DNA of 64,000 nt. It comes from Cinnamomum chago (lineage: Eukaryota; Streptophyta; Magnoliopsida; Laurales; Lauraceae). Position 1 is the first letter of the stretch, and each line of letters begins with the position of its first letter. Where the stretch lies: the NCBI GenBank assembly GCA_038049695.1, contig CP142451.1, positions 71,378,001 to 71,442,000 of the forward strand, given 5' to 3'. Positions 663-58,742 of the stretch are shown piece by piece. The notes under the pieces were generated by a model. It searched no databases and was not told the DNA's origin. It saw only the letters and a list, made by a program, of their open reading frames with translations. A program made the position numbers and the translations under genes.

Positions 663-1331
663 TTGAAACCCACTACCCATTTATTTAGATGCCCAATCAG
701 CCTAGATTTGTTCACTGATCCAGTTACTCTCAGCACTGGCCAAACCTATGATAGATCCAGCATTGAGAAATGGCTTGCAGATGGGAATCTCACATGTCCT
801 GTTACAATGCAGAGGCTCCATGACTTGTCCATGGTACCCAACCACACTCTCCGGCATCTGATCGATCAGTGGGTTCTCATGGATCCTCAATTCGACGAAG
901 ATCACATAAAAAGTATGGATCCAGACTTCTCCTTCGCTACCTTGAAGAACAACCTTCAATCCCAAGAGGCCAGTTTCATTACAAAGATGGAGACACTCAG
1001 AAAGATCAAAGCTTTGTCAAAGGAATCTAACACCAGGCGCATATGTTTCCCATTACTACTTCAACTGCTATTTGGAAGTCACCACCCAGAAACAAGACTC
1101 TCTGCACAAGGTACAGAGATTGCAGAAGAAGCTCTCAATTGTCTCTTGAATTTATCACCTAGTTCTCAACTTGGGTCTCTTAGTATGCTCAAAGTATCCT
1201 CTAGTTTAGCATCATTGCTCATGTTATTAGACCAGGGGAGTATGAATATCAAGATAAGTTTATGTAATATGGTGGATACCTTTCCCTGGTTTTGTATCCA
1301 TATGTTCCTATTATCAATCACCCCAATTTGA
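663..1331 (+). pseudogene. U-box/ARM-type E3 ubiquitin ligase fragment (PUB family)
   Basis: U-box proteins bind E2 enzymes and act as E3 ubiquitin ligases. Residues 8 to about 75 form a clear plant U-box: the start motif FRCPISLDLFTDPVTL, then TGQTYDRSSIEKW, the CPVT strand and a PNHTLRHLIDQW end. Residues 75-210 look like the linker and first ARM-type helices of the PUB25/26-like group (for example FPLLLQLLFG). The frame opens on TTG, not ATG, and has a TGA directly upstream (660-662); the next in-frame Met is inside the U-box. The 222-residue frame ends after one or two ARM-like helices, while family members usually exceed 400 residues, and the last 15 residues look random, starting near a GT at 1273. 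I therefore read it as a start-less, 3'-truncated copy. A missing first exon joined by splicing is possible but less likely, because HLF just before FRCP also fits the family. Confidence 0.72.
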
Positions 1332-3139
<1,808 letters not shown>

Positions 3140-5153
3140 CTACTTTTCCTCATCCGATTGGGAACTGTTGTAGGTCTCCGTGTATTGATCGAACGTAGCC
3201 TCAACAGCGGATTTGAATTTCCCTATCTTGCCACACAATGAAGTGATAAATCTATCCATGGACGATGCCGGGTTCTTATCCATTGCTCGACCGCACGACC
3301 GCTTAATATGATCAAATAATTCAAACACCTAATACACACACGTAACACTTGTCATTTAAAGAATCGGTCCCAATATTAAACTTTGAAAGTCAAAATAAAT
3401 ATCCTACTCACTCTTTTTTGACTGACAATGGGCTCATGTTCCCCAGTTTGTTCTGGTACAACTGCCTTGGGTGCGTCATCTTGCCTTGGTCGGCCTATGT
3501 GCATTATAGTATTTAAAGAATACCATGCCATATATTCCTCGGTGTGCTCCACTTTGAATGACTTCTTCCCATGCAATACACTGTTATACCTCTTCTCCCA
3601 TAACTCTATCTCTGCTGAGTGTACAATACCGTAATTTGTAACGACTTTTTCTATGCGCTCCGACCTTGGCAATGCCGCTACAAAGGGTGGAGGAACTACC
3701 TGCCTTAGACCGAACTGTTTCATGACCCGACCGGTGTTGTGCCTTTCTAGCACCCAAAAGAATATCAGAGGTGCAGAACATCTGAATAAATATCGGTCTT
3801 CCTTGGGTACTCGTTTTAGGAACGCCTTGCCAAGCCTCTTATAAGGCTGCCAGTCAAACTGTGGAAACGTAATACAGAATGTATTAGATAGAGTATAAAA
3901 GCAGTGCATAAAAATCTCCAAAATAGATCAAATTAATAATTAACTTGATCACCTGCTCGGCTGTAAGGTTGTTGAGTTGTTTGCGTACAGTTCTCAGCCT
4001 TGTAACATGGTAGCTTCCTCCTAGCCTGCTGTGCCATGTGATTGTCAAGGGGAACTGAATGTCATTATTAGGCCATGCCCAAGGCTTTATCACTCGGCCG
4101 ATTGGCATCCCCAAATAGGCCCATATCTGTGAAATTGTTAAAAATATATTGTTGTTAGTGCGTACCAACTTTGTAAAAGACTAATGCATTCAACAAAACA
4201 CTATGATTAATACAAACCTGGAGCAGCTGGAGAGGGCCTGACAAACTCTTGAATGTATGTTCGAACGCATCACTCTCGTTCGTTGGGTCAATACCTACTG
4301 GTTTGCCATCCGAACCAATATCGGTTTTCTTTAGCCCAGCCCACCTCACTCCCTTGTTCAACATTCTGTATAGGTTGGCCAGACAAGTGGGGGCCCAGGC
4401 ATAGGGTTTGAAATCCCTAAATAATTCAAGTGCATATGCGGGCCCCCCTAGAAGAAGAAGCGTTTGAATTGATCTGTCCCGAAACCAAGAAAAAGAGATA
4501 GGCTCTAGTATTGTAAACCTCTTGCTCAGCACTAAGTTTCTTCTTCTTATTATTATTATTTCCTTGATCAGCCTGGATCCAGAAGTGTTGTTCCAACCAT
4601 ATGTACTTAATGGATATTCCATTGAAATCTACACCCATTTGGGGTCGAAGGCCTAGCAATTCTTCACACAAATCTGCGACGTTTGCACTAGGAAATGTTG
4701 TACCGGTGACAGCCGGTCCATTGATCGGTAGTCCGTAGATATATGCAACATCCTCTTGTGTCACTGTCGCCTCGCCGATGGGAAGGTGAAATGTGTTTGT
4801 TTCAGGGCGCCACCGCTCCACCAAACTGGTAATCAATGTGTGATCTATTCTAATCCACCTCATCTGTGGAAGGTGGTATAGTCCGGACATGCGAACATAT
4901 TCTAGCTGCCTCTCGTTTAGATGCCATGTCCCGTAATCAGGGTTAGTCGGAATGCACCTATAAGTACCAAGCTCCTGTCAACATGTAAAAGAGAGCACTA
5001 CAAAAACCATGCATTGATATTCAATTGAAAATGGTAGGTGGTTTAGCAACATACAATCCCATTATATATGGCTGAACTAATATGTGTTTCCTGCTCAGAG
5101 AGAAGATCAACTGTAGCATTTTCGTTTGCATTGTTGCTCTCTGCTTCAGACAT
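3140..5153 (-). pseudogene. Plant mobile domain (PMD, MAIN-like) protein gene, five exons, one-base frameshift
   Basis: PMD proteins (MAIN/MAIL family) are nuclear proteins linked to transcription control and silencing of repeats; the same domain also travels in transposons. I can trace five exons on the minus strand: 5153-5055 (ATG, 33 codons), 4974-4218, 4126-3953, 3858-3412 and 3328-3140 (stop). Every junction is GT-AG and every intron is phase 0. Landmarks are the Y-HLPQMRW start, FHLPIGEATVTQEDVAYIYGLP, TRAYLFFLV, FRDFKPYAWAP--LANLYRML, LLQ/IWAYLGMPIGR split by intron 2, and RVMKQFGLRQ in exon 4. Exon 2 is 757 bases, one more than a multiple of three. The good frame before the run of six G at about 4442-4447 and the good frame after it differ by exactly one base. 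With one G fewer the gene would encode about 554 residues. This is either a recent null allele or a sequencing error. Confidence 0.85.
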
Positions 5154-35410: not shown

Positions 35411-36717
35411 ATAGTATCCGTCGTAGTCATTATGGTGGTTGTATGTTGTGAGTTAGCTGCATTACGGTTGAGCTTAGAAGATGAAAGACCAAGAAAAAAG
35501 CACCGCATTTCATCATTGTCCGGCGACATATGGATCAAAGAACTCTTGTTTAGCACAGGTCCTCAATGCCATGAGAACCTTCGAATGAATCCTGAATGCT
35601 TTCATATTTTGCGTGACACATTCAGGCATCGTAATCTCCTTCAATCAAGACGCCTTTTATCAGTTGATGAGCAAGTAGCAATGTTTTTACATATATTAGC
35701 TCATAGTGTTACTAATTGAGTGACTGCAAATCGATTTAACCATTAAGGAGAAACAACTAGTCGTTATTTTCATGAAGTGCTAAATGCAATTAGCAAGGTC
35801 TATCCGAACTATATTTTCATTCTAGAAAACACTCCCATTCCGCAACAAATTATGGCGAATAAAAGATTCTATCCATATTTTAAGGTTAGCTCCTTTTATC
35901 AATTTTCTAATACCAATAATTATTCTTTACATTAACATGTTCTCACTTTGCTCAAAATCTTCATTGGCTCATTAGGATTGCATAGGAGCCACTGATGGAA
36001 CTCATATACTTGCTCATGTCTCACTTTCAATGCAAGCCATGTATCGAAATAGGAAAGGGTTTCTTTCTCAAAATTGCCTCATGGCATGTGGATTTTATAT
36101 GAAATTCCATTATGTGCTTGCAGGGTGGGAAGGTTCTGCGACGGATGCTACTGTCCTTTGGTCTGCGTTGAATAGGGGAGATAGGTTGAAAGTCTCAGAT
36201 GGTAATCTAAATAAACGGATAGGTTGAAAGTCCCAGATGGTAATCTAAATAAACTTGTTCACTTACATCCTCTTGAAAATCTAGCATTTAATTTATCACA
36301 ACTATTTGATTTGTAAATGTAGGTAAATTTTATCTAGTCGATGCTGGTTATAGCAATCGACCAGGGTCCTTGACACCATATAGAGGTGTCCGTTATCATC
36401 TTAAAGAGTTTAACATCAGTTGCCCTTTGAAGAATGCACAAGAGCTTTTTAATTTGCGTCACTCTTCATTACGTACCACGATAGAAAGGGTATTTATAGT
36501 GTTAAAAAATCGATTTCCCATCTTAAGGATGCCACGTGGGTATTCATTGACTACCCAAAGAGATATTGTAATTGCGTGTTGTGTCCTACACAACCATATT
36601 GCTTTGTATGGTGCTAGAGATGAATTTCTTCAAAAAATAAGAATGACCCCATCAAATGCTCCAGAGATTGATCCTCAATTGAGAGCTGCAAGAGATGGGG
36701 TCACAGTTCCAAGGTGA
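35411..36717 (+). pseudogene. PIF/Harbinger transposase (DDE_Tnp_4), three exons, inactive
   Basis: This nuclease would cut out and reinsert the element. Exon 1 (to about 35884) includes ENLRMNPECFHILRDTFRHR; exon 2 (35976-36201) includes DCIGATDGTHI (first catalytic D) and GWEGSATDATVL (second D); exon 3 (about 36323-36717) includes YLVDAGYSNRPG and TTIERVFIVLKNRFPIL (catalytic E), then CCVLHNHI. Two stops lie in exon 1: TGA after HSVTN (35718-35720) and TAA in place of the serine in NH-S-GET. The splice donor of exon 2 lies in a 38-bp tandem duplication. The start codon is uncertain; the first ATG in frame is near 35429. Confidence 0.82.
36180..36255 (+). repeat. 38-bp tandem duplication across a splice donor
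   Basis: GATAGGTTGAAAGTCYCAGA, the donor GGTAATC and the following bases occur at 36180-36217 and 36218-36255 with one difference. Both copies keep a usable GT donor. Confidence 0.85.
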
Positions 36718-40070: not shown

Positions 40071-43000
40071 TTAGAATTCAGGGCAAGGGCCAATGCCCAA
40101 TTGATGTCTCAATTTTATGAAATGATCATTTCCAAGGGGTTTAGTAAATAAGTCAGCCAATTGGATATCTGTAGGAACAAACATTAACTCAATAGTGCCT
40201 TGGTCAGCATGATCACGTAAGAAATGATAGCGAATGTCAATGTGCTTAGTGCGAGAGTACTGAACAGGAATTTTAGAAATACTAATGGCACTAGAGTTGT
40301 CACACATGATAGGCATGCATTGTTGTGGAACATTATAGTCTAACAAGGTTTGTTTCATCCACAACAGCTACATGCAGCAATATATTCAGCTTCTGCAGTA
40401 GACAAGGATACAGAATTTTGCTTTTTACTATGCCAGGCTACTAAGCAGTTCCCTAAGAAATAGCAGCAGCCACTACTGCTTTTCCTATCGTCTATTGATC
40501 CTCCCCAATCTGCATCACTATATCCAATTAATTGCAGAGTTGAGTCATGAGGATACCAGATACCATAATGAGAAGTCCCATTAACATTTTTTATGATACG
40601 TTTAACAACTTTAATGTGAGATTCTCGGGGATCAGATTGATACCTAGCACATATTCCAACACTAAAAGAGATATTAGGTCAGCTAGCAGTGAGATAGAGA
40701 AGGCTTCCTATCATGCTCCTATAAAGTTTCTGGTCAGCTTTCTTACCCTGAAGATCACTAGAGATTTTAGTAGTAGAGCCCATGGGATTGCAGCTAGTCT
40801 TAGATTCTCCTAAGCCAAACTTTCTCACTATTTCTAGAGCAAACTTGGATTGACTAAGAAAGATACCATGATAAGTCTAACTAACTTGTAATCCTAGAAA
40901 GAAGTGTAGGGGTCCTACCAGACTCATTTCAAAAGTGGAGCTCATCAATTTAGAAAATCCTTGAGCAAGTTGATTAGATGTGGATCCAAAAACAATGTCG
41001 TCAACATATATCTGAGCGATGAGAATATCTTTATCAACCTTTTTAATGAAGAGAGTCTTGTCCACATTTCCACACTCATATTCATTTTCAAGTAAGTGAC
41101 TTGTAAGCTTTTCATACCAGGCTCTTGGGGCTTGTTTCAATCCATAGAGAGCCTTCTTCAACTTAAATACATATTCCGGATGATGAGGATGCTCGAAGCC
41201 TTGAGGTTGAGTGACATACACATCTTCCTCAATTTCACCATTTAAAAAGGCACTCTTCACATCCATTTGAAACAGTTTAATCTTCATGCTACTGGCATAA
41301 GCCAATAAAATCCGAATAGACTCCAAACGAGCTATAGGAGCAATGGTTTCCTCAAAATCAATTCCTTCAACTTGAGCATACCCTTTGGCTATAAGTCTAG
41401 CTTTGTTCCTTATTACATTTCCTGATTCATCTAGCTTGTTCTTGAAAATCCATTTGGTGCCAATTTGACTTTTGCCTTCAGGAAGAGGTACAAGATCCCA
41501 CACATCATTCTTTTTAAACTGATTTAATTCTTCTTGCATGGCATCCATCCATTCAGACTTGGTTTCTGCTTCAGAGAAGTTCTTGGGCTCAATTTGTGAA
41601 ACAAAGGAATAGTGAGCACACAGATTATGAACCTGTCTTCTTGTCATGACTCCTTTTGTGATGTCTCCAATGACATTATCCAAGTTGTGATTTCTTAATA
41701 ACTTTATGGGCATAGTAGGGACTGAGAGGATTTCTTCTTCAATTTCAGATGAAATAGGCTGCTCAACTAAGGTCTCTTCTTCATCATGAAGAACTTTCTT
41801 AATTTGATTAGTCTTATCAAAGACAACATGAGCTGATTCCATAACAGCCATCGATATGAGGTTGAACACTCTATAAGCCTTGCTTTTATCCGAATAGCCT
41901 AAAAATATCCCTTCATCAGATTTTGAATCGAACTTTTCAAGATGCTCTCTATCTCTTAAAATATAGCACTTACTACCAAACACTTTAAGATAACCCAGAT
42001 TTGGTTTTCTTCCAAAATATAGCTCATAAGGGGTTTTGTTAGTGTTCTTTGTCAAATAAACACGATTGATAAGATAGCAAGTGGTATTTATAGCTTCAGC
42101 CCATAAGTTACGAGGGAGATCTTTCTCATTAAGAAGGGTTCTAGCCATTTCTTGAATAACTCTATTTCTTCTTTCAGCTACTCCATTTTGCTAGGGAGTT
42201 TTTGGAGCCGAAAATTGATGATTGATCCCATGGGTTTCACAGAAGTCTGCAAATCTTTCATTTTCAAATTCGCCTCCATGATCACTTCTTATTTTCTTCA
42301 TTTTGCAGTCCTTCTCAACTTGAATTTTCTTGCAAATCCTTATAATATTATCTACTGCATCTGATTTTGCATGAAGAAAGGCTACCCATCCAAATCTAGA
42401 ATAATCATAAACCATAACTAGGATATACTTTCTCCCACCAATACTCTGTACAGGTGCAGGTCCAATGAGGTCCATATGAATGAGTTCAAGAGGACGAACA
42501 TAGGATATATCTTTTATACCTTTAAAACTTTTCTTGATTTGTTTACCCATTTGACAAGCCTTGCACAATCAGATTTGTAATCATCTAATTTGGGTATTCC
42601 TCTAACAATTTCTTTCTTGGATAAGATCTTCATCAGTTTGTAATTTATATGACCCATTCTTTGATGCCACAACTGATTTTCTTGAACTTTTGACATTAAA
42701 CACATGGATTCATTTTCACAACATTCTTCTATGGTGTAGATGTTATCTTTAGTACGTAATCCAGTGAGTAGAACTTTGTGGGATTTCTCATCCAGAACTT
42801 TGCAAGATTTGCTATAAAAAACAACTTTGTTTCCTTTATCACATAACTGACTTATGCTCAAGAGATTATGCTTTAAGCCATCCACAAGGAAAACATATTT
42901 TAAAGTAGGCATTTGATCTCCTCCAACACATCCTTTTCCAATAATCTGAGCTTTCCGATTATCTCCAAATGACACATTTCGTCCATCATAGTTCTCAAGC

Positions 43001-44800
43001 ATGATTAATCTAGAACGGTCTCCAGTCATATGTTTGAAGCAACCACTATCCAAAAACCATCTAGAGTTTTCCTTAACTTTAAGAGCGGTTTGAACTAGAA
43101 AGTTCTTGACACTTTTCTCTTTTTCAATCCAAGTAGCCTTAATGAAGGTAGAGGTAGTGGTCTTGGGAACAAACTTAAAAGGAGCTCTAGAAAGATGATT
43201 TTGAGACATCCTAAACTTAAAGGGGCAATTTGGAACTAGATGACCTATTTGATTGCAAAAGTGACAAGTCCATTTAAAGGAAAAGAAGATTTTATCTATA
43301 GGTTTGAAATGAGTCCTAGAAATATGTTGAAATTTATTCTTCTTGCTACTAGAGCAACATTCAAAACCTATACCATTCTTGTTACCAAAAATTTTGTTCA
43401 TACCTAACATTTGATAGAATTTGTCATTTCCCAAGGTAAATTTTTCAACAACATCTTTTCCCTTTTTAAGTTTCATTTGTAGAGATCCTGATTCTTGTTG
43501 ACTAGATTCTAGCAGACATTGTAATTTATGAATTTCTTTTTCAGCTTTAGCTCGATTGTCATTAGAGGTAGTCAGCTTAGATTGAACATTTCTTATCTCA
43601 TTGTCTTTCAAGATTAATTGATCTTTTAAAACATTTAGCTCATTCACAAGCCTTTTATATTCAATTTTTAAACTTTTATTTTTCTTGGTTATGACTTCAC
43701 ATAGTTCATATAGTTCCTCATAGGCTTGATGAATATCATTTTCACTATTCTCATCATTTACTTCTTCTACTAAAACATTATGATCATTGTTTTCTTCAAT
43801 GGGAGTAAATAGAAGCCAAGAAGTGGAGTTATCATTATCTTCATCATTTTGAGGTTCATTATTGTCACTACTTTCATCTTCATCATCATCACAAGTTATG
43901 TTCAAAACTTTCTTTCCTTTCTTATCTTTCTTTCCAGATTCTTTAGGGGGGGGACAATTTAAAGCGATGTGACCAAAACCTTTACAGTTGTAACATTGCA
44001 CATCCTTCTTGGTAAAAGATCCCCTTGAGTTCCTTTGAAAATTTTCATTTCTAGAATCCTCAGAATTTTTATAGTTCTTTTTGTTTCTAAGGATATTCCT
44101 AAACTTCTTGACAAGCAAGATGGCGTTTTCATCATCACTGTCACTCTCATTATCATTTTCTTTATGTTGGGAGCTAAGAGCTACACCTTTCTTCTTGCTA
44201 GGGACTTCAAAATCTAATTCATAAGTGAGAAGATTTCCTCTAAGTTCTTCAATTTTGATCTTGTCAACATCTTTACTTTCAGTTATATCTACTATCTTGG
44301 GTTTGAACCTTTTGGGGAGAGATCTTAATATTTTTCTAACAGCTTTGGACTCATCCATCTTCTCTCCTAGACCTATGAGGGAATTAACAATCTCCATGAA
44401 TTTAGTATAGAACTCGTCAAAGGTTTCTTCCTCTTGCATTTTGAGTTCTTCATACTTAGTAGATAACATTTGGATTTTAGCTACTTTGACTTGATTAGTC
44501 CCTTCATGAGTGGTCTCTAAGGTATCCCACACTTCCTTAGCAGTAATACAATTTACTACCCTGTTGAACTCTTCTTGAGACAAAGCACAAAACAAGGCAT
44601 TTTTAACTTTTGCATTTAGATTTGCCCTATCTTTCTCTCCTTGAGTCCAGTCTTTCTTAGGCTTATGCTTGATAGATATGACATGTCCTTCCGAATCTTG
44701 TTCAGTTATAATGGGTTCATGATACCCTTTGAGATTCTAGAAAGACTTGCATCCTAATCTTCCAATATTGGTAATGAGAGCCATTAAACAAGGGTGGTCT
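40071..44800 (-). pseudogene. Sirevirus gag-pol polyprotein with several stops and frameshifts
   Basis: The polyprotein supplies capsid, protease, integrase, RT and RNase H. Reading leftward: gag from about 44800 (NYQYWKIRMQVFLES, EVWDTLETTHEGTNQVK), zinc knuckle CYNCKGFGHIALNC (about 43960-44005), coiled coil (43500-43750), second knuckle CHFCNQIGHLVPNC (43230-43275), protease WFLDSGCFKHMTGD (near 43020-43060), GAG-pre-integrase LWHQRMGHINY, integrase (42191-42568, HMDLIGP and DHGGEFEN), RT (40877-42148, QMDVKSAFLNGEIEEDVYV and IYVDDIVFGS), RNase H (ending 40074, SAISISKIPVQYSRTKHIDIRYHFLR). Breaks: a one-base shift near 44735, a one-base loss near 42570 before CKACQMGK, TAG for Q at 42192-42194 in TP-Q-QNGV, and stops after GLQVS (40874-40876), in LTAS-stop-PNI and near 40360. 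It cannot make a complete protein. Confidence 0.92.
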
Positions 44801-51120: not shown

Positions 51121-51651
51121 TAAATGCTACAGTCCTTGAAATGCTTTGTTTTATTTGGCTTCTCTTTATCGTACATGTGGTTTTATGAATCTCAAACTAT
51201 TTGATATATATATAACATGATTGTACTTGAAGGGAAGTGTTAAGCAATCTAATCTTATAAGATCCTAGTAATCATGGATGGGAATCAGATCTGATCCTTC
51301 AAAGACTAGCAGTGCTGTGTCATAATCCCACATTCAATGGAGATTTGATTCATCTTAGATCTTGTAGACAACACTAATGTGTCATACATCCACATTTAGT
51401 GGAGATCTGATCATTTTAGATTTTGTACACGTATACAAACAGCTACAGTTGCTATTATTTCAAAACAAATGTACAGACCATGTGTCTATAAATGTAACTG
51501 CACAACTCATAATACATTCATCGATTCAGACATTATTTCATTCTTTTTCATTGATGTTATGTTACATCTAAGGTGTAGTTTAGATTTATGTCCAAATAAT
51601 GTTTGGTTCAAACTTTGAATACTGTGGCCTAATGAATTACTGATTTCTTCT
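51121..51651. other. Gene-free flank of the CACTA element
   Basis: No gene is recognised. The last 35 bases (51617-51651) repeat 58015-58049 on the far side of the CACTA element, so this is the same DNA as the upstream part of the ABCC gene region. It may be an intron or the flank of that gene. Confidence 0.45.
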
Positions 51652-51674
51652 CACTACGTCAAAAATCACCAAAA

Positions 51675-51905
51675 ACGACGGCCATTGGCCGTCGTTTTTC
51701 ATGAAAATCGACGGATTTAGCCGTCAATCCAGCCGTCGAAAATTTCAAGGTCGTTTTTTAAAATCGACGGCCAATGGCCGTCGGGAAATCTATCCAAAAC
51801 GACGGCTTATAGCCGTCTGAAATAACCGTCTGCCCACAGCGGTCGTTTTTTAATTTATTTTTTTAATAAGAAATTTAAAAAAACGACGGGTTTTGGCCGT
51901 CGTTT
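51675..51905. repeat. Subterminal repeats of the CACTA element
   Basis: ACGACGGCCATTGGCCGTCG, CGACGGCCAATGGCCGTCG, ACGACGGCTTATAGCCGTC and ACGACGGGTTTTGGCCGTCG are short inverted repeats clustered within 250 bp of the left end. Confidence 0.85.
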
Positions 51906-52363
51906 TTTATTTTAAAAAAATAAAAAAAAAATATTATTCTGATTTTTCTAAAGAGTGACTTTTGGTAGATGAAAGCACTTTTCCTTTTTTTGTTGAAAGA
52001 GGGATTAGATCAATTAAGAAACACTGATAAAGTGGATGAACCAAATAAGCAGACAATGTCAAGATAAATATTGTCATAAATTAAAAAATCCACTACTATG
52101 AAATGTCCAAATAAATACATGCAAATATGTACATCTTATACGTACTGATGGATATTCTAACTGAAAGAGGGCGTTACGCAAGTAAGCAATTATCCACACA
52201 AGCACAAACTGGACCTATTTTGGTTTCCACGCCATGGCTTGAAGCCAGCCAATAGACTCCAACGGTAATATATTCAGGAGCCTGGGCATAACAGATTACC
52301 ATCAAAGTGTCTAACTACAAGTATATTTCTGTTATTTTGAACAAAATGAGTTTAGTATCTTAC

Positions 52364-53098
52364 ACAATTGAATATTGATGGAGCTCCAGGTCCTGCATCT
52401 ATAATTGCAAAGTCAAAACAAGAAAGAACAACTAAAGTATAGCATAGCAGTAGCTGAATCATCATAAACTCTCACTTCATACGCAAACGAAAAGTCATTC
52501 TAAAACTTCATCATTTAATTCAGTATAATAACTAGTCTAAGAGATTATAACAAGCCATTTAGAGGGGACGGGGGGCGAAGAAGTAGAAAATGAGGTTATT
52601 CAGTACCTATCTCCAGATCATGCCAAAGGTGCGCTGCAACTTCCCGTCTGGAAAAGCTTGAAAGTATTCTTTCATTGAGAGCTGGATGCACTTGGTGTGA
52701 GTTAGATGACTTGTTTCGGGTTTCACTAGGCAGTGCCATAACTGCAAGTTGAAACCAGATATAAAGAAATCTTTCAATTACCTGACTTTCTGAAGATCCA
52801 GAAGGTGAGGTTCCCTGTTCACAATGTATGCCCAAGAATTCCAGAGCCTTGCTCCCTAAATCCACTGCTGTAACTATAAAAACACAAAACCCAGAAAGAA
52901 AAACAGAAAATTAAATACCCCAGATGAAGAAGACCAAAAAAAAATTACAGAGTCGAGATTTTTTTTCTCCTCATCATCAGTGAATAACAATATACCTTGA
53001 TAAGATGAGGTTTTGAGAAGCCTTTCAATCAGTTTCCTGTTTATAAGGCTGTCATCAACAACTAGAGCATGGAATTTGGTTTCAGCAGGTATAGCCAT
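52364..53098 (-). CDS. Chimeric response-regulator / inorganic-pyrophosphatase fragment gene
   Basis: Three exons: 53098-52996, 52873-52607 and 52392-52364, with GT-AG introns of 122 and 214 bp, open in one frame for 133 codons. Exon 1 and the first part of exon 2 are the N-terminus of a type-A response regulator of the ARR8/9 type ([17 protein letters not shown], then [13 protein letters not shown]). They have the acidic pocket DD but stop before the phospho-acceptor Asp. The source exon's donor (SESQ/GTAATT) and a 40-bp piece ending in AG follow. They are too short to be spliced as a plant intron, but read through in frame ([14 protein letters not shown]). Then comes the start of soluble inorganic pyrophosphatase with its own Met ([35 protein letters not shown] in exon 3), short of all catalytic residues. 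After 52364 a GT donor is used; a possible last exon is 52281-52174 (35 codons and stop). Neither parent activity can be complete. Expression is not shown. Confidence 0.75.
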
Positions 53099-53179
53099 TG
53101 CTGATTGCTAGAGGAAGATAAGAAGAAAAAACAAGGAGAAGAATTTGCAATAGCAAGAGAAAGAAGAAGAGAATCAGTG

Positions 53180-53185
53180 TTTATA
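53180..53185 (-). promoter_or_regulatory. TATA box upstream of the chimeric gene
   Basis: TATAAA on the minus strand lies 82 bp before the ATG at 53098, followed by a pyrimidine-rich leader. It was probably captured with the response-regulator 5' end. Confidence 0.6.
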
Positions 53186-53262
53186 GAAGGAGAATAACCC
53201 ATAGGAAATACCCCCACCAAAATCCCACTCCATAGAAAGCAAGATCCAACCAGATTTCATCA

Positions 53263-53543
53263 GAATCTGATCCTTAGCTTCCCATTCGCATCCACAACTA
53301 CCACCTCACCCCTGCTTGCAGGTGTCTCCATACCCCATCCCCACCTAGGTGTCACCAATCCCCCTCTGTTCCTCACCTTGTCTCCCACCTTGAATGCTCT
53401 CACCTTCTCCATTTCCCATGCCTTGCATACCCATAGCAGACATGCTGCCCAACCTTCAAGCTATCTACCTTTTCAACATCTGTGTAGTGGGTCATCCACC
53501 TTCCTTTTTGGAAACACCCTGCCAACTCTAAATAGCCACTGTC
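53263..53543 (-). pseudogene. KEG-type E3 ubiquitin ligase fragment captured by the CACTA element
   Basis: KEEP ON GOING (KEG) is a multidomain RING E3 ligase of the trans-Golgi network that controls ABA signalling; its C-terminal half is a series of HERC2-like repeats. From 53543 (just after an AG acceptor) the minus strand reads DSGYLELAGCFQKGRWMTH, YTDVEKV and LKVGQHVC. In a different frame, from about 53425, it reads KAWEMEKVRAFKVGDKV, then TPRWGWGMET and VVVVDANGKLRIRF, ending at a stop at 53260-53262. In a complete KEG these two pieces are several hundred residues apart, so an internal deletion has joined them. Same strand as, and directly upstream of, the chimeric gene. Confidence 0.82.
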
Positions 53544-54984
53544 CTGAACACATCAACATGACAAGGCCATCCTTTTCTATTATTATTTTTTTTATCTCTC
53601 ACAGCCATGTCAAACATTCATGGAAAGGGCATTTGTTTTGAAAGCTGCTGCAATTTTCAAAAACCAGCCCCCATTGTGGAGATACAGAAACTGGAAAATA
53701 CACACCAGCAAGATCGTTACATTTGGTATAAGTGGGTTAGACTTAGATCTGTCATAGGTGCACACACTGAAATATGGCAGTGACATGCCCAACCTTGTTA
53801 ACGTCACCATCACCCTCCCTCATTTTGCCCTGTTCAGTAAATTCATTACTGACTTGACATGTATATTTAAGAAATTCTTCATGAAGTGTTATGACATTTA
53901 AATAAAAGATGCTCCACAATATGGATCTAGTACTGAAAAATCACCTTATGTTGCAAAATATATGTCGGTAAATTAATGTTTAAAAATGATCCTTGGTGAT
54001 AAGTTCCATTCCTGATATCAGTCAGTAGCTGGGATTTAAGAGAGATGAAAGGAAAATGCAAATGCAATAGATAGGCAATGGCAGCTTCAATCTTCTTATG
54101 CATATGCATTCTTCTTTCTTTTAGCAATGGTTTTCTACTTTACTTGTTTGGAAAATAAATGTTAGGATAATTTGATCCATCTGCTCAACAACTCTCTATC
54201 AATCCAATCAAGAAAAAAAAATCCAGCACAAACCAAAACCATCATTATCATTTGTTAATCATCTTCACCAATCAACTGACTTCATCATCTCTATCACCCT
54301 CACTGCATCTTTTTTCCTCTCACCCATGAACCCACTTACTCATCAAACACCATTCTGAAACCAACCCATTTGAAGTGTATGCCAGCCTCCAAACTCACAA
54401 ACCAAGCACACCGCCAACACACTTCCTAAGTTCAGATTTCCCAACAAATAAACAGTATGGAAGGATGCTTATTAAGTTTTTTATTTTGATCATGCACGTG
54501 TGCATGCAATCTTTTTTGTCATTATTCCTGCAGCCCCATGGTTGACTTGGGCATTAGGCATTCTAGTTTCACAGACTGTGCATGTGCAATGTAACAGAAT
54601 TCAGCATAATCCATGTGTCAATCTGCATATGTATAGTGGTCCTATCAAAAGGATAGTTATTTTTTCACCATAATCACTGGTTAAATAAGAAAATTTTAGG
54701 ACCCATATGATCATGAGATCTTAATGCAGGAGAGGAACCTTTTCATGAATTCTTCAACTCTGTTAGTAGAGATGTGGGAATAATAAGAACCAATGAAGAA
54801 AATTGAACATGCAGAAACTCAGAAGTAGCAACTTACATAAATTCTCTATTATTATCAACAGTTAGGTCGTGGATGCAAATAAATAAAAACCGATACGGCT
54901 TGTTGAGCAAACACTGTCATTCTTTGTTTCTTCTCCCTATTCACATCTTTTCTACATGGCATAATAAGTCATCAAAGCCACCTA

Positions 54985-55040
54985 CCTAAGCCACCGACCT
55001 AAGCCACAAGCCACAGTCCTAAGCCACCCTAAGCCACATT
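54985..55040 (+). repeat. AAGCCACC(TA) short tandem repeat
   Basis: Repeated CCTAAGCCAC words lie just upstream of a TATATAAAG box near 55107. The part 54870-55370 may be a small LTR-like or promoter-bearing insert within the CACTA element, but I cannot fix its ends. Confidence 0.45.
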
Positions 55041-57959
55041 CTGAAGCATTTTTCACGAGGTAAATTGGCATACTTCTCCATGTGCCCACCACCCTTTCCC
55101 TTGTGTCTATATAAAGAGGCATTTGGTTTGGTTGTTGTTGTAGTAAGAAGTGAGATCCACTCTAGTGAAGTGAGATTTGAGTGTAGTTGTGTTGAGTGTC
55201 ATAGAGTTAGTGTAATATGTATTACATGTGCGGGTGTTCTCTTGTATTAAGTTTGTGTCTTTATATAAGTTGTGTTAGTGACAAGATCAAAACTTGATGA
55301 ATGCTCTCACTTGTGTGATGTATTGTCGCGCCCGAGCCCACCTTTAATTTCCTACACTGCTATGGTCATATCTGCATCAATTTTTGTTCAAGAAACAGAG
55401 TACATTTTCTTACTGGTACAGATCTTACTAAAAACCTAATTTTTTTTTTAATGTTTCCTTTAATGCTTTATGGTATTTTGGATGCAGAGTTGCAGATACT
55501 GTGTTGGAATATGATATTAACCAATAAAAAAGGCTTTACTCAAGAAGCTTTTCACCAAAACAAATAGAAGTTGATTCCATGGTTGCTGACACTGCCATGT
55601 AATGCTGATGATTAATTATAATCATGTTATATAGCAGGCATTGAACAAGTGGAGAGAGTCCTAATTAGCAAGAAATACAAAAAAAGAAGTGCCAGAGAAG
55701 AAAAAGCCCAATTCACCTGAAATTAGATCCCAGCCAGTGCAACAAGATCTTGGTCTTTAAACCAAAGGGCAAGGTGGGAAGACTTAACTTCCTAAGTTCA
55801 GATTTCCCAACAAATCAACATATCATTCCACCATTTGTAATAAATCATCAAACAACCAAACTTAGCTTCCTAACCCACTAACCCAAGATACTAGTCCCAC
55901 CAATATGGTTTATAGAATGATGGGTGGCAGAGTTACTGAGAAGAAGATGATGACCCAAATATCAGACAACGTTCACACCCAAATATCAGACAACATTCAC
56001 ATCAAAATATCAGACAACAGTAAGTTACCCACATTGCTAGCAAGATTGTTGGTTTAACAATAGAAAACTAAAAATAAGTTTTCAAACCACCCAAAGGACT
56101 ATAGAATTCAGCATAGTTAGCTGGCCCATCTCGTGGGCTTTTTTTTTATTTACTCTTTGTTATCAGCACTGATTTGTTTGTTCTCCCATTGTAGAGATTG
56201 CAAAATTTGGAGCATGAGGAGAGAGCATACTAACATATTGTTACAAAGTGTGGAAAATGAAAGACAGCAAGTAAACTAACTTCTATTCCGCAAGTGATTA
56301 CTGGTCCAATAATGGTCAGATCTATCAATCTGCCAACCAGCCTTCGAAACCTACCTACATCTCACAGGGTCTCTCTTTTCGCAAACGTGGGTTTCAACGA
56401 TTCAACCCCAACATCCTTCTCATCAAAGTGGTACATAGTATATTTTCTTTGAGAGATTGAAACCTCACCAAGACCTTACTCAGATCAATTGGGTAGGGGT
56501 AAGCTTTGTTCGTTGGCGGAACATGATGATGATAATAATGAAGTCTTATTGTGCTTCAGGATGAGAGAGTAACATTTTAGTATTGCACAAAAGTCCCAAA
56601 CCAAGTCTAGAAAAAACACTCAAAATCCCTCATTTCAGAACTACACATGGATAGCCCACACAACAACTTCAACCCATCTTCTCCAAAATGATACCTTCTT
56701 TTATATATGAAAGAAATTGCAAAATCAGTTCATTCAAGCATAAAGTCAAACACATTCAAGAAAGGGGGGTACACGTAGACCCTAGAAAAGAAATCAAAAT
56801 ATATGTAATATTTCTACATGGTTGTGACAAGGTTGATAAATATGAGGGCATTTTCCTTTCTCTTGAAGATATAAGAAATAGAAGATAACACAGAACTAGA
56901 ATATGTTATGGCCTATAGGCCATATGAAGACCAATTAGTTCTTCTGATTTCCAGGCTGGTTGACAAATTTGTGGTTAATTAACTTAAATCTTAAAAATGC
57001 AACACTACTGGTGCTTTGTCGCTATGGCTAAAAAGGTTGGTTGTCTATAGTTCGCATTTGATTGTGGAAAACAGGGGATTTATCTGTATGAGATGAATGG
57101 AGAATTTCAGTTGATTTATTTGAGCACTGATGCGAATATGTGAAGCAACCAAATCGATCTTAGGAAATCTGTTTTGCAGAAAGATGAGGATATCACTATT
57201 TTTTTTTTCAATATATTCAATCGTTGTGGGGATTTAGAGAAAATATCTGAAATTAAAACAAGGATAGAACCCAACACATGTAATGCAGATAGGAAACACC
57301 AACAAAGCATAAAAAGAGAAATCTGTGCGTGGGTTGGTGTGTGGGCGTGTGTTAGTTTGAGAGAGAGAGAGGAGACTTACGAGTGATGTTTTGACGCAAG
57401 CAAAGACACGGACCCCTGCAACCCAGATGGAGAAGCGAAGGTAAAACTGTATTTAAATGCGAGTAGGAATAGTAGCAGCAAACGCCCTGAGAATGAGTCG
57501 AAGCAAACGAAAGGAAATCATCTTGATAGCACTGGAAAGTAGAAAGTAGAAACCATTTGCCGTCTCATTACATTTTCCAAAGCAAGTGCTGCAGGGGCAT
57601 TCATTCATCCCCTGCAGGTGTTGAGGAGAGGGAGAGAGACCGAGTGGGAGAGAGGGAGAGGTGCCGCTGCAGATCGAAGTCGAGGTGCCGCTGCCGATCA
57701 AATATGTGCGTAGCGGGGAGAGAGGGAGAAAGGGGGAAAATAGATAGGGTAAGTGGCGGGAGAGAGGGAAAGAGAGTGAAAGGGCGCGAGGGTGTCGAGA
57801 ATGCCCAAATATGCCCGGGGTCTTCTTTTTTTTTCACATTAACGACCGCCATCGCCAATCGGTAACAGTGGATTATCCGTCGAAACACGACGACGGCCCG
57901 CATCAGTCGGTAAGACCAAAGTGTAGGAGTCGTTCTTCAGCCTTTTTGACGTAGTGTTT

Positions 57960-58100
57960 ATGCATCCAGTGCCATGGAAAATCTGAATCCATATCGGCTA
58001 GGTTGTGGTTCTTCGAATACTGTGGCCTAATGAATTACCGATTTCTTCCATGCTTCCAGCGCCATGGAAAATCTGAATCCATATCGGCTAGGTTGTGGTT
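57960..58100. repeat. 90-bp tandem duplication at the CACTA target
   Basis: ATGCATCCAGTGCCATGG and the following bases at 57960-58010 recur at 58050-58100. The remainder of the unit, GAATACTGTGGCCTAATGAA onward, is at 58015-58049 and, on the other side of the CACTA element, at 51617-51651. The original site was therefore a tandem duplication with a 90-bp period, and the transposon landed in its first copy. Confidence 0.88.
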
Positions 58101-58278
58101 TTTTTTTTTTTTAATCTTTGCACTTCATACACTTTTTACAAATATGAGACAGTTAGCATTACCCGTCTTGGTAATCTGCCTCCTAATTAGAATGATGTAA
58201 TGATTCATAGCTGTAACAAACCTGAGATTGTTAGGATTACCCTGTGCTGCATTAATGTAATACTCATGTAAACCGCAG

Positions 58279-58742
58279 TCGTTGAAAATGGAGAGAGCTG
58301 GAACATGGGTCTGCGACAACTCGTCTGTCTTGGCTGTGTGATATTGAAGAGAAGAAAGGTCTTGGTCCTTGATGAAGCAACTGCTTCAGTTGATACTGCT
58401 ACCGACAACCTCATTCAACAAACACTGAGGCGACAATTCTCAGACTCTACAGTCATCACAATTGCACATAGGATGACATCTGTTCTTGATAGTGACATGG
58501 TCTTGCTTCTTGATAATGGTTGTTATATAGTCCCATTCTCATTCTTTGTCCCTCTTTTTTGTTATTTTCTTAGGAACTTAAATGTATTTATTTTATTTTA
58601 TTTTTGTGCATGAGCAGGTGTTGTTGCAGAATACGGCTCACCAGCCAAATTGCTTGAAAATAAGGCCTCTCTATTTGCAAAACTTGTGGCGGAGTATAGT
58701 GTGAGATCAACTTCTAGTTTTGAAAACTCAATTAATCTCTGA
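58279..58742 (+). CDS. ABCC (MRP)-type ABC transporter, last two exons
   Basis: ABCC transporters pump glutathione and other conjugates across the tonoplast or plasma membrane. Exon 58279-58518 and exon 58618-58742 are joined through a GT-AG intron (AATG/GTTGTT ... GAGCAG/GTGTTG). The second nucleotide-binding domain is visible from VVENGESWNMGLRQL (signature region) through Walker B VLVLDEATASVD and the switch ITIAHR to the typical end AEYGSPAKLLENKASLFAKLVAEYSVRS, stop at 58740-58742. The signature reads NMGLRQL where relatives have S-M/V-GQRQL, so a conserved Gln is Leu, and LGR is LGC. Walker A and all transmembrane exons are absent from the window, and no upstream exon is visible between 57960 and 58278. 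The C-terminus resembles the ABCC3 group. It may be a gene whose other exons are far away, or a leftover 3' fragment. Confidence 0.82.

Follow-up and report, generated by a model that had tools for sequence, protein, structure and literature searches.

The stretch of DNA analysed here, a 64-kb window of the Cinnamomum chago genome (the window; G000:C1:71378001-71442000), contains at window positions 51652-57956 a non-autonomous Pack-CACTA element that spans 6,305 bp between the outer edges of its terminal inverted repeats (TIRs) and carries pieces of three unrelated host genes. From its relatives and the likely parent genes in the same genome, which was searched as a 1.06-Gb assembly of 14 contigs, we conclude that it is probably a hybrid Pack-CACTA, with a cargo that was assembled stepwise and then taken up by the transposon family to which the element belongs (F1). 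Parts of one block of the same three genes occur in at least two TIR families, and we lean, with modest confidence, towards the view that CACTA families pass ready-made gene mosaics on. The element and its target site are made up as follows, with window coordinates and with strand where one is assigned:

51649-51651, left target-site copy, TCT, read from TCT on the left against TTT on the right and from an empty-site paralogue
51652-51665 (+), left TIR, CACTACGTCAAAAA, matching the right end at 14 of 14 positions
51652-52227 (+), left backbone of the CACTACGTCA family (F1), matched at least in part by all 20 further fetched loci
51671-51910, five left subterminal palindromic repeats, CGACGGC/GCCGTCG
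52228-52763 (-), piece of a soluble inorganic pyrophosphatase (PPase) gene, 92.6% identical to L029: exon 1 (52607-52739), intron 1, the start of exon 2 (52360-52392) and part of intron 2
52764-53262 (-), piece of a type-A response regulator (ARR) gene, 93.6% identical to L033: 5' region, exon 1 (52996-53098), intron 1, exon 2 (52782-52873) and the start of intron 2
53263-53551 (-), piece of the SH3_15 repeat exon of a KEG gene, 96.0% and 94.9% identical to L030
53552-54030, segment common to other F1 copies (L010 to 54030, L011 to 53838)
54027-56102, composite of segments, each distributed separately in the genome, among them a repeat at 54185-54415
56098-57956, right end, 96.4% identical to L056 over 56098-57868, probably of another subfamily
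57943-57956 (-), right TIR, TTTTTGACGTAGTG, the inverted CACTACGTCAAAAA
57957-57959, right target-site copy, TTT, from reading of the flank

The original prediction, of a CACTA element with perfect 14-bp terminal repeats, holds. The TIR begins with CACTA, as in Pack-CACTAs, and the target duplication is of 3 bp, with one mismatch between its copies. A neighbouring unit of the target repeat (58011-58103) serves as an empty-site paralogue: the joined flanks align with it gaplessly over 93 bp, 87 of them identical, which shows directly that the element went into one unit of a direct repeat of about 90 bp and duplicated 3 bp. The left-end 18-mer has 15 occurrences in the 1.06 Gb, its reversed control none. 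Subterminal palindromes had been expected and are clear on the left, but the right subterminal repeats are far more degenerate. The expected lack of a transposase is borne out by the 20 interior open reading frames scanned, none of which matched a transposase family (other short frames lay outside the scan); within 53552-57956, ten frames gave no Pfam match at E 0.1 and three further ones none at E 1, in a set that is not exhaustive. Other classes were considered and rejected. Helitrons have neither TIRs nor target-site duplications, and the presence of both rules that class out here; Pack-MULEs duplicate about 9 bp of their target, against 3 bp here; and retrotransposon-mediated (processed) capture is ruled out by the retention of ARR intron 1 and PPase intron 1 with their splice signals.

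The gene pieces all lie on the minus strand, in the transcription order KEG, ARR, PPase. Their identity and shared strand, as first read from the sequence, are upheld by matches to SH3_15, Response_reg and PPase, and introns are indeed kept (ARR intron 1, PPase intron 1 and part of PPase intron 2). The cargo does lie inside the element but is confined to 52228-53551 and does not fill the whole interior. The SH3_15 match has an E value of 6.8e-8. The Response_reg match, for a 65-aa piece made of two exons that we joined, has an E value of 3.9e-4 and 21 bits, below the Pfam cut-off of 30.2. For PPase, the two exons that we joined match a PDB chain at 9.4e-17 and the unspliced frame at 2.1e-8, and Pfam gave no match for the 55-aa piece. 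As the original prediction had proposed, parents could be looked for in the same genome, and likely ones are found on three contigs. That of KEG, on contig 10 (L030), has an open 395-aa SH3_15 frame; its name comes from 11 of 71 listed homologues, called KEG or KEG-like and 61-78% identical to the parent stretch, and the named homologues are from flowering plants. Relative to this parent the KEG piece lacks 700 bp, through an internal deletion at 53437 with a 3-bp microhomology, AGC. The likely ARR parent lies on contig 1 at 118.94 Mb (L033 and L041), where receiver exons and a short polyglutamine tail were read by eye, features from which we take it to be of type A; that of PPase lies on contig 2 (L029 and L040), its later exons again read by eye. 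Because the ARR piece ends before the exon bearing the DYCMPGM motif (visible in the L033 translation), which we take to be the site of the phosphorylated aspartate, the PPase coding piece ends after 55 residues and the KEG piece is a fragment from its repeat region, none is expected to work like its parent. The pieces would then be without protein function, and any effect would come through chimeric or antisense RNA.

The order in which the cargo was put together can be read in part from its joints, which we compared in the three parents and in 16 copies, the window among them (L016, L031, L032 and L036 were left out). The ARR-KEG joint is present in all five F1 copies compared (the window, L009, L010, L011 and L045), in two copies that we call the C8 pair (L042 and L046), in L047 and L048, which belong to a second CACTA family (F2), and in L038, L039 and L034; it is eroded in L035 and not reached in L043, L055 and L037. 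The KEG deletion is found in the window, L009, L010, L011, the C8 pair, L047, L048, L037, L038 and L039, is missing in L034 and L035, where parent KEG sequence continues, and is not reached in L045, L043 and L055. The joint at 53551 between KEG and the following sequence is shared by the window, L009, L010, L011, the C8 pair, L047 and L048, and is not in L037, L038 or L039. The PPase-ARR joint occurs in the five F1 copies, the C8 pair, L043 and L055; L034 and L035 do not have it and continue into ARR intron 2 and exon 3. The joint at 52227 between backbone and PPase is confined to the five F1 copies; L042, L043, L046 and L055 continue there into parent PPase sequence, which makes the F1 joint the shortest version of the block. 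This distribution makes the ARR-KEG joint the oldest, since it survives in L034 with KEG undeleted and ARR exon 3 still there, and the PPase-ARR joint later; the KEG deletion preceded the joint at 53551, since L037 and L039 have the deletion without that joint. The cargo was thus assembled stepwise, although the joints give no order between the KEG deletion and the PPase joint.

F2 is recognised by a left end, CACTACAAGAAA, with CCGACG-type subterminal repeats, seen at the L047 locus (read on in L051) and at L048. Its cargo includes the ARR-KEG joint in L047 and L048 and, with more PPase sequence, the PPase-ARR joint in L043 and L055. Two candidate F2-type inverted right ends lie beside L043 in the same orientation, 0.7 kb apart (C4, 57.188-57.190 Mb); such a spacing is the closeness that a hybrid-element model asks for. 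A GTAGTG in L055 was dropped as a right end of F2, as a chance match that has no subterminal repeats beside it and differs in its sister L043. A genome search with the F2 subterminal sequence, in which 40 of 1,115 first-look candidates were scored, located it at seven cargo loci among those 40, each time upstream of the cargo and oriented alike: C5:2.81 (the query's own), C11:14.77, C4:88.44, C2:63.24, C1:24.48, C1:41.31 and C3:44.23 Mb. The C8 pair, at C8:60.28 and 59.87 Mb, holds the whole trio with more PPase sequence than the window, and on its KEG side L042 has the same flank as an F2 copy for 67 bp past 53616. In a tree of 52228-53155 from nine copies, with the parents as outgroup, F1 forms one clade (support 94) with F2 as its sister (89), and the C8 pair branches outside the two.

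The element has moved as a complete unit. The search for sister copies with the same ends and cargo, for which the left 449 bp gave 44 genome matches (40 of 91 candidates scored) and 20 places besides the window were fetched, found L009 on contig 9, which matches the window from TIR to TIR (97.9% over 991 bp and 98.5% over 5,337 bp), with the same cargo and both ends. The match stops exactly at both TIRs, with 300 bp of flank searched on each side and hits above 60 bits considered, and L009 has its own target duplication, ATA/ATA; the window/L009 element has transposed as a unit. Within the PPase piece of L009, at window position 52642, sits an insert of about 0.88 kb resembling a long terminal repeat (TG...CA) with AACTT on both sides, which the window copy does not have. 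Further F1 copies share less: L010 and L011 match the left 2.4 and 2.2 kb, all three gene pieces included, followed by a right half that is common to the two and differs from that of the window and L009, and L016 shares just 0.8 kb. The sequence of 55400-57960 is found whole in the window and L009 only, while almost all of the part from 56098 on is repeated, at 94-96% identity, at six other loci, and portions of it at additional ones; elements sharing this stretch include those at C6:61.04, C7:4.01, C4:60.57, C5:34.09 and C5:29.22 Mb. At one of the six loci, L056 on contig 2, the match is 96.4% over 1,782 bp, up to window position 57868; L056 has a CACTACGTCAAAAA left end, the subterminal part of which is only 70% like that of the window. 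The window element thus probably combines two subfamilies that share a TIR. That the two CACTA ends might belong to different elements had been named as a point against the original prediction; the ends do seem to be of different subfamilies, but the hybrid, as L009 attests, moved as a unit.

The history that we favour began, as the joints show, with the union of the KEG and ARR pieces; at later stages 700 bp of KEG were lost, ARR was cut in intron 2 and fused to PPase, and KEG acquired its joint to other sequence at 53551. An F1 element may then have taken up an internal part of such an assembled block, and aberrant excision or repair between neighbouring CACTA copies may have linked a left end from one F1 subfamily with a right end from a second, producing a hybrid that would still be mobile through transposase supplied in trans. 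According to a model described in a review, neighbouring Pack-CACTAs can lose complementary ends to give a hybrid that encloses the DNA between them (PMC13317346), and the putative hybrid ends would fit the prediction of that model. The original prediction had the element itself shuffling the three genes together. Capture one by one by this CACTA element would account for three pieces within one intact element and for the trio in four F1 copies (the window, L009, L010 and L011), but we regard it as very improbable, given that the ARR-KEG, PPase-ARR, KEG-deletion and 53551 joints also occur in F2 and/or C8 copies without the F1 backbone, and that those of them with PPase keep more of its sequence. 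Still further from the evidence is a segmental duplication linking the window and L009: high identity runs across the whole element, but the flanks are unlike within 300 bp, each copy has its own target duplication and the window has an empty-site paralogue, which leaves this explanation with hardly any probability.

Less easily dismissed, though we doubt it, is the possibility that the block first came together in unique DNA or in another type of element, such as a Helitron, and that both CACTA families later took parts of it. The C8 pair would suit such an origin, since it holds the full trio with more PPase, falls outside F1 and F2 in the tree, and shows no recognisable CACTA end in the 9 kb read around L042, and the full set of three genes was not seen in any one F2 copy; the flank that L042 shares with an F2 copy and the F2 subterminal sequence alongside seven cargo loci speak for an F2 connection instead. 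Exchange of cargo and right ends by ectopic recombination or gene conversion, without aberrant transposition, seems to us unlikely. It would explain why the right halves of window/L009 and L010/L011 differ so sharply after a shared left 2.2-2.4 kb, but the breakpoint at 52227/52228 has no long sequence shared between F1 backbone and PPase, so that end joining fits better there than homologous exchange. Several observations weigh against stepwise assembly followed by uptake into a hybrid F1 element, among them the missing F2 trio and the missing ends around L042 just mentioned. Each F2 copy shows one end only, L055 is assigned to F2 solely through its 97% likeness to L043 over 5.8 kb, and beside L043 there are the two candidate right ends. 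The support of 89 for F1 with F2 comes from few sites, two of them shared by F1 and F2 only. The basis for hybrid ends is one element, L056, whose own right TIR was not seen (the match ends at 57868), and the adjacent tandem donor copies needed by the hybrid model were not seen here. ARR-like pieces are numerous (L031, L032 and L036), which makes the ARR parent the best candidate but an unproven one. Finally, no autonomous F1 copy was identified among the 20 fetched loci, for which frames of at least 90 aa were listed and the two long frames of L024 Pfam-scanned, and Transposase_21 matches were not systematically crossed with F1 ends. L024 has an F1 left end and no right end found; one of its frames is MULE/FAR1-like and the other is without a Pfam match. 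All 150 scored Transposase_21 candidates pass the cut-off (1,658 first-look candidates in the genome), an abundance compatible with supply in trans but no test of it.

Multi-gene Pack-CACTAs with introns have already been published. Tgm-Express1 of soybean is a 5.7-kb CACTA element with pieces of five unrelated host genes, inserted in an expressed flower-colour gene, where the pieces are spliced into chimeric transcripts (PMC1947982). It resembles the window element in size and in its exonic and intronic multi-gene pieces (five versus three) with introns kept; it differs in being described from one insertion with chimeric transcripts, whereas the window element is known from sequence, together with likely parents, joints and a second host family. 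Pack-CACTAs as outlined in a further paper (PMC8903248) and in the review (PMC13317346) are likewise non-autonomous, with TIRs, target duplications, multi-locus host DNA and a proposed mechanism that yields hybrids from neighbouring copies, but the ends of the window element are probably of two subfamilies (about 70% alike on the left) and its joints also occur in a family with another TIR. In grapevine, a ULP1 domain is described in several CACTA and MULE families, and repeated independent MULE capture or frequent loss is suggested (PMC2528002). There too one host-derived sequence is spread over several transposon families of one genome; in contrast to repeated capture or loss, the same artificial joints in more than one family here point towards one origin and later transfer. 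A limited literature search, over partly accessible sources, turned up no published example in which two CACTA families that differ in TIR share one set of captured joints.

Until now, views of how multi-gene Pack-type cargo is built have mostly been drawn from the finished elements. The present genome holds likely parents together with intermediates and derivatives, their joints resolved to the base, and much of the order becomes readable: join, delete and join again, change of host family, swap of right end. Capture can thereby be separated from later circulation, which is a reason not to equate every multi-gene element with a capture of its own, and the series of copies may be used for testing the neighbouring-copy model of gene capture. 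If the proposed transfer is true, transposons would supply one another with host sequence, and exons once captured could outlive any one family.

Splicing of the cargo would give an RR-PPase frame of 134 codons, consisting of the ARR N-terminus, a 14-residue linker and the PPase N-terminus. It is fully open in six of nine copies, with a stop in L055 and a 1-nt deletion in L042 and L046; two of the six open copies (L010 and L045) are without the ARR intron-1 donor. With the linker left out, the nine copies hold distinct variants that comprise 17 nonsynonymous changes, 1 stop and 8 synonymous changes on 275:86 sites, and the ratio of nonsynonymous to synonymous changes per site (pN/pS) is 0.90 over all pairs and 0.81-3.76 against the parents, on 1-5 synonymous changes. 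Selection on the frame was rejected, there being no sign of purifying selection at a pN/pS of 0.90, and the open frame looks neutral. With the L009 insert left out, the window and L009 differ at 77 of 6,301 sites (Kimura two-parameter distance 0.0123), a divergence of about 0.4-1.2 million years at substitution rates of 1.5e-8 to 5e-9, which are not calibrated for this plant.

A right end was located at 16 of the 20 fetched loci, the exceptions being L015, L016, L024 and L026. Perfect 3-bp duplications flank 11 of 12 counted F1 insertions, L028 being the exception; in this count L027 was dropped (its left TIR is cut), the second of two candidate right ends was taken for L012, and L017, L019, L020 and L021, which have the same flanks, were counted once. 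These four lie 39-42 kb apart at C4:34.22-34.35 Mb with identical flanks and are probably a segmental tandem array that carried the transposon along. Other F1 relatives seem to carry other captured genes: L027 (2294-2977, minus strand) and L028 (1927-2436, minus strand), in window orientation, have F1-type ends and a long open frame, presumably akin to a piece of a TSS/REC (clustered-mitochondria) gene. Within the window element, the repeat at 54185-54415 has 25 other listed places at 96-99% (24 short matches and one within a longer match), and 54845-55345, present in the window and L009 and missing from a related stretch at C12:11529834-11529966, is therefore probably a nested insertion of about 0.5 kb. 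A Transposase_21 match at C2:77485492-77486118 lies about 11 kb from the PPase parent, which may be chance among so many first-look candidates.

To the right of the element, the last two coding exons of an ABCC-type transporter gene lie at 58272-58739 on the plus strand (best PDB match ABCC13, E 9e-33; the second exon was read by eye), and the gene pieces of the element are antisense to them. A motif search of the 64-kb window gave no upstream ABCC exon motif, so this is either part of a gene or a gene whose other exons lie very far away. Elsewhere in the window are the following, the DDE_Tnp_4 piece being presumably of PIF/Harbinger type:

663-1328 (+), U-box exon
3379-4977 (-), plant mobile domain, in two pieces
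36310-36714 (+), DDE_Tnp_4 piece
40880-44736 (-), Copia-type gag/pol pieces

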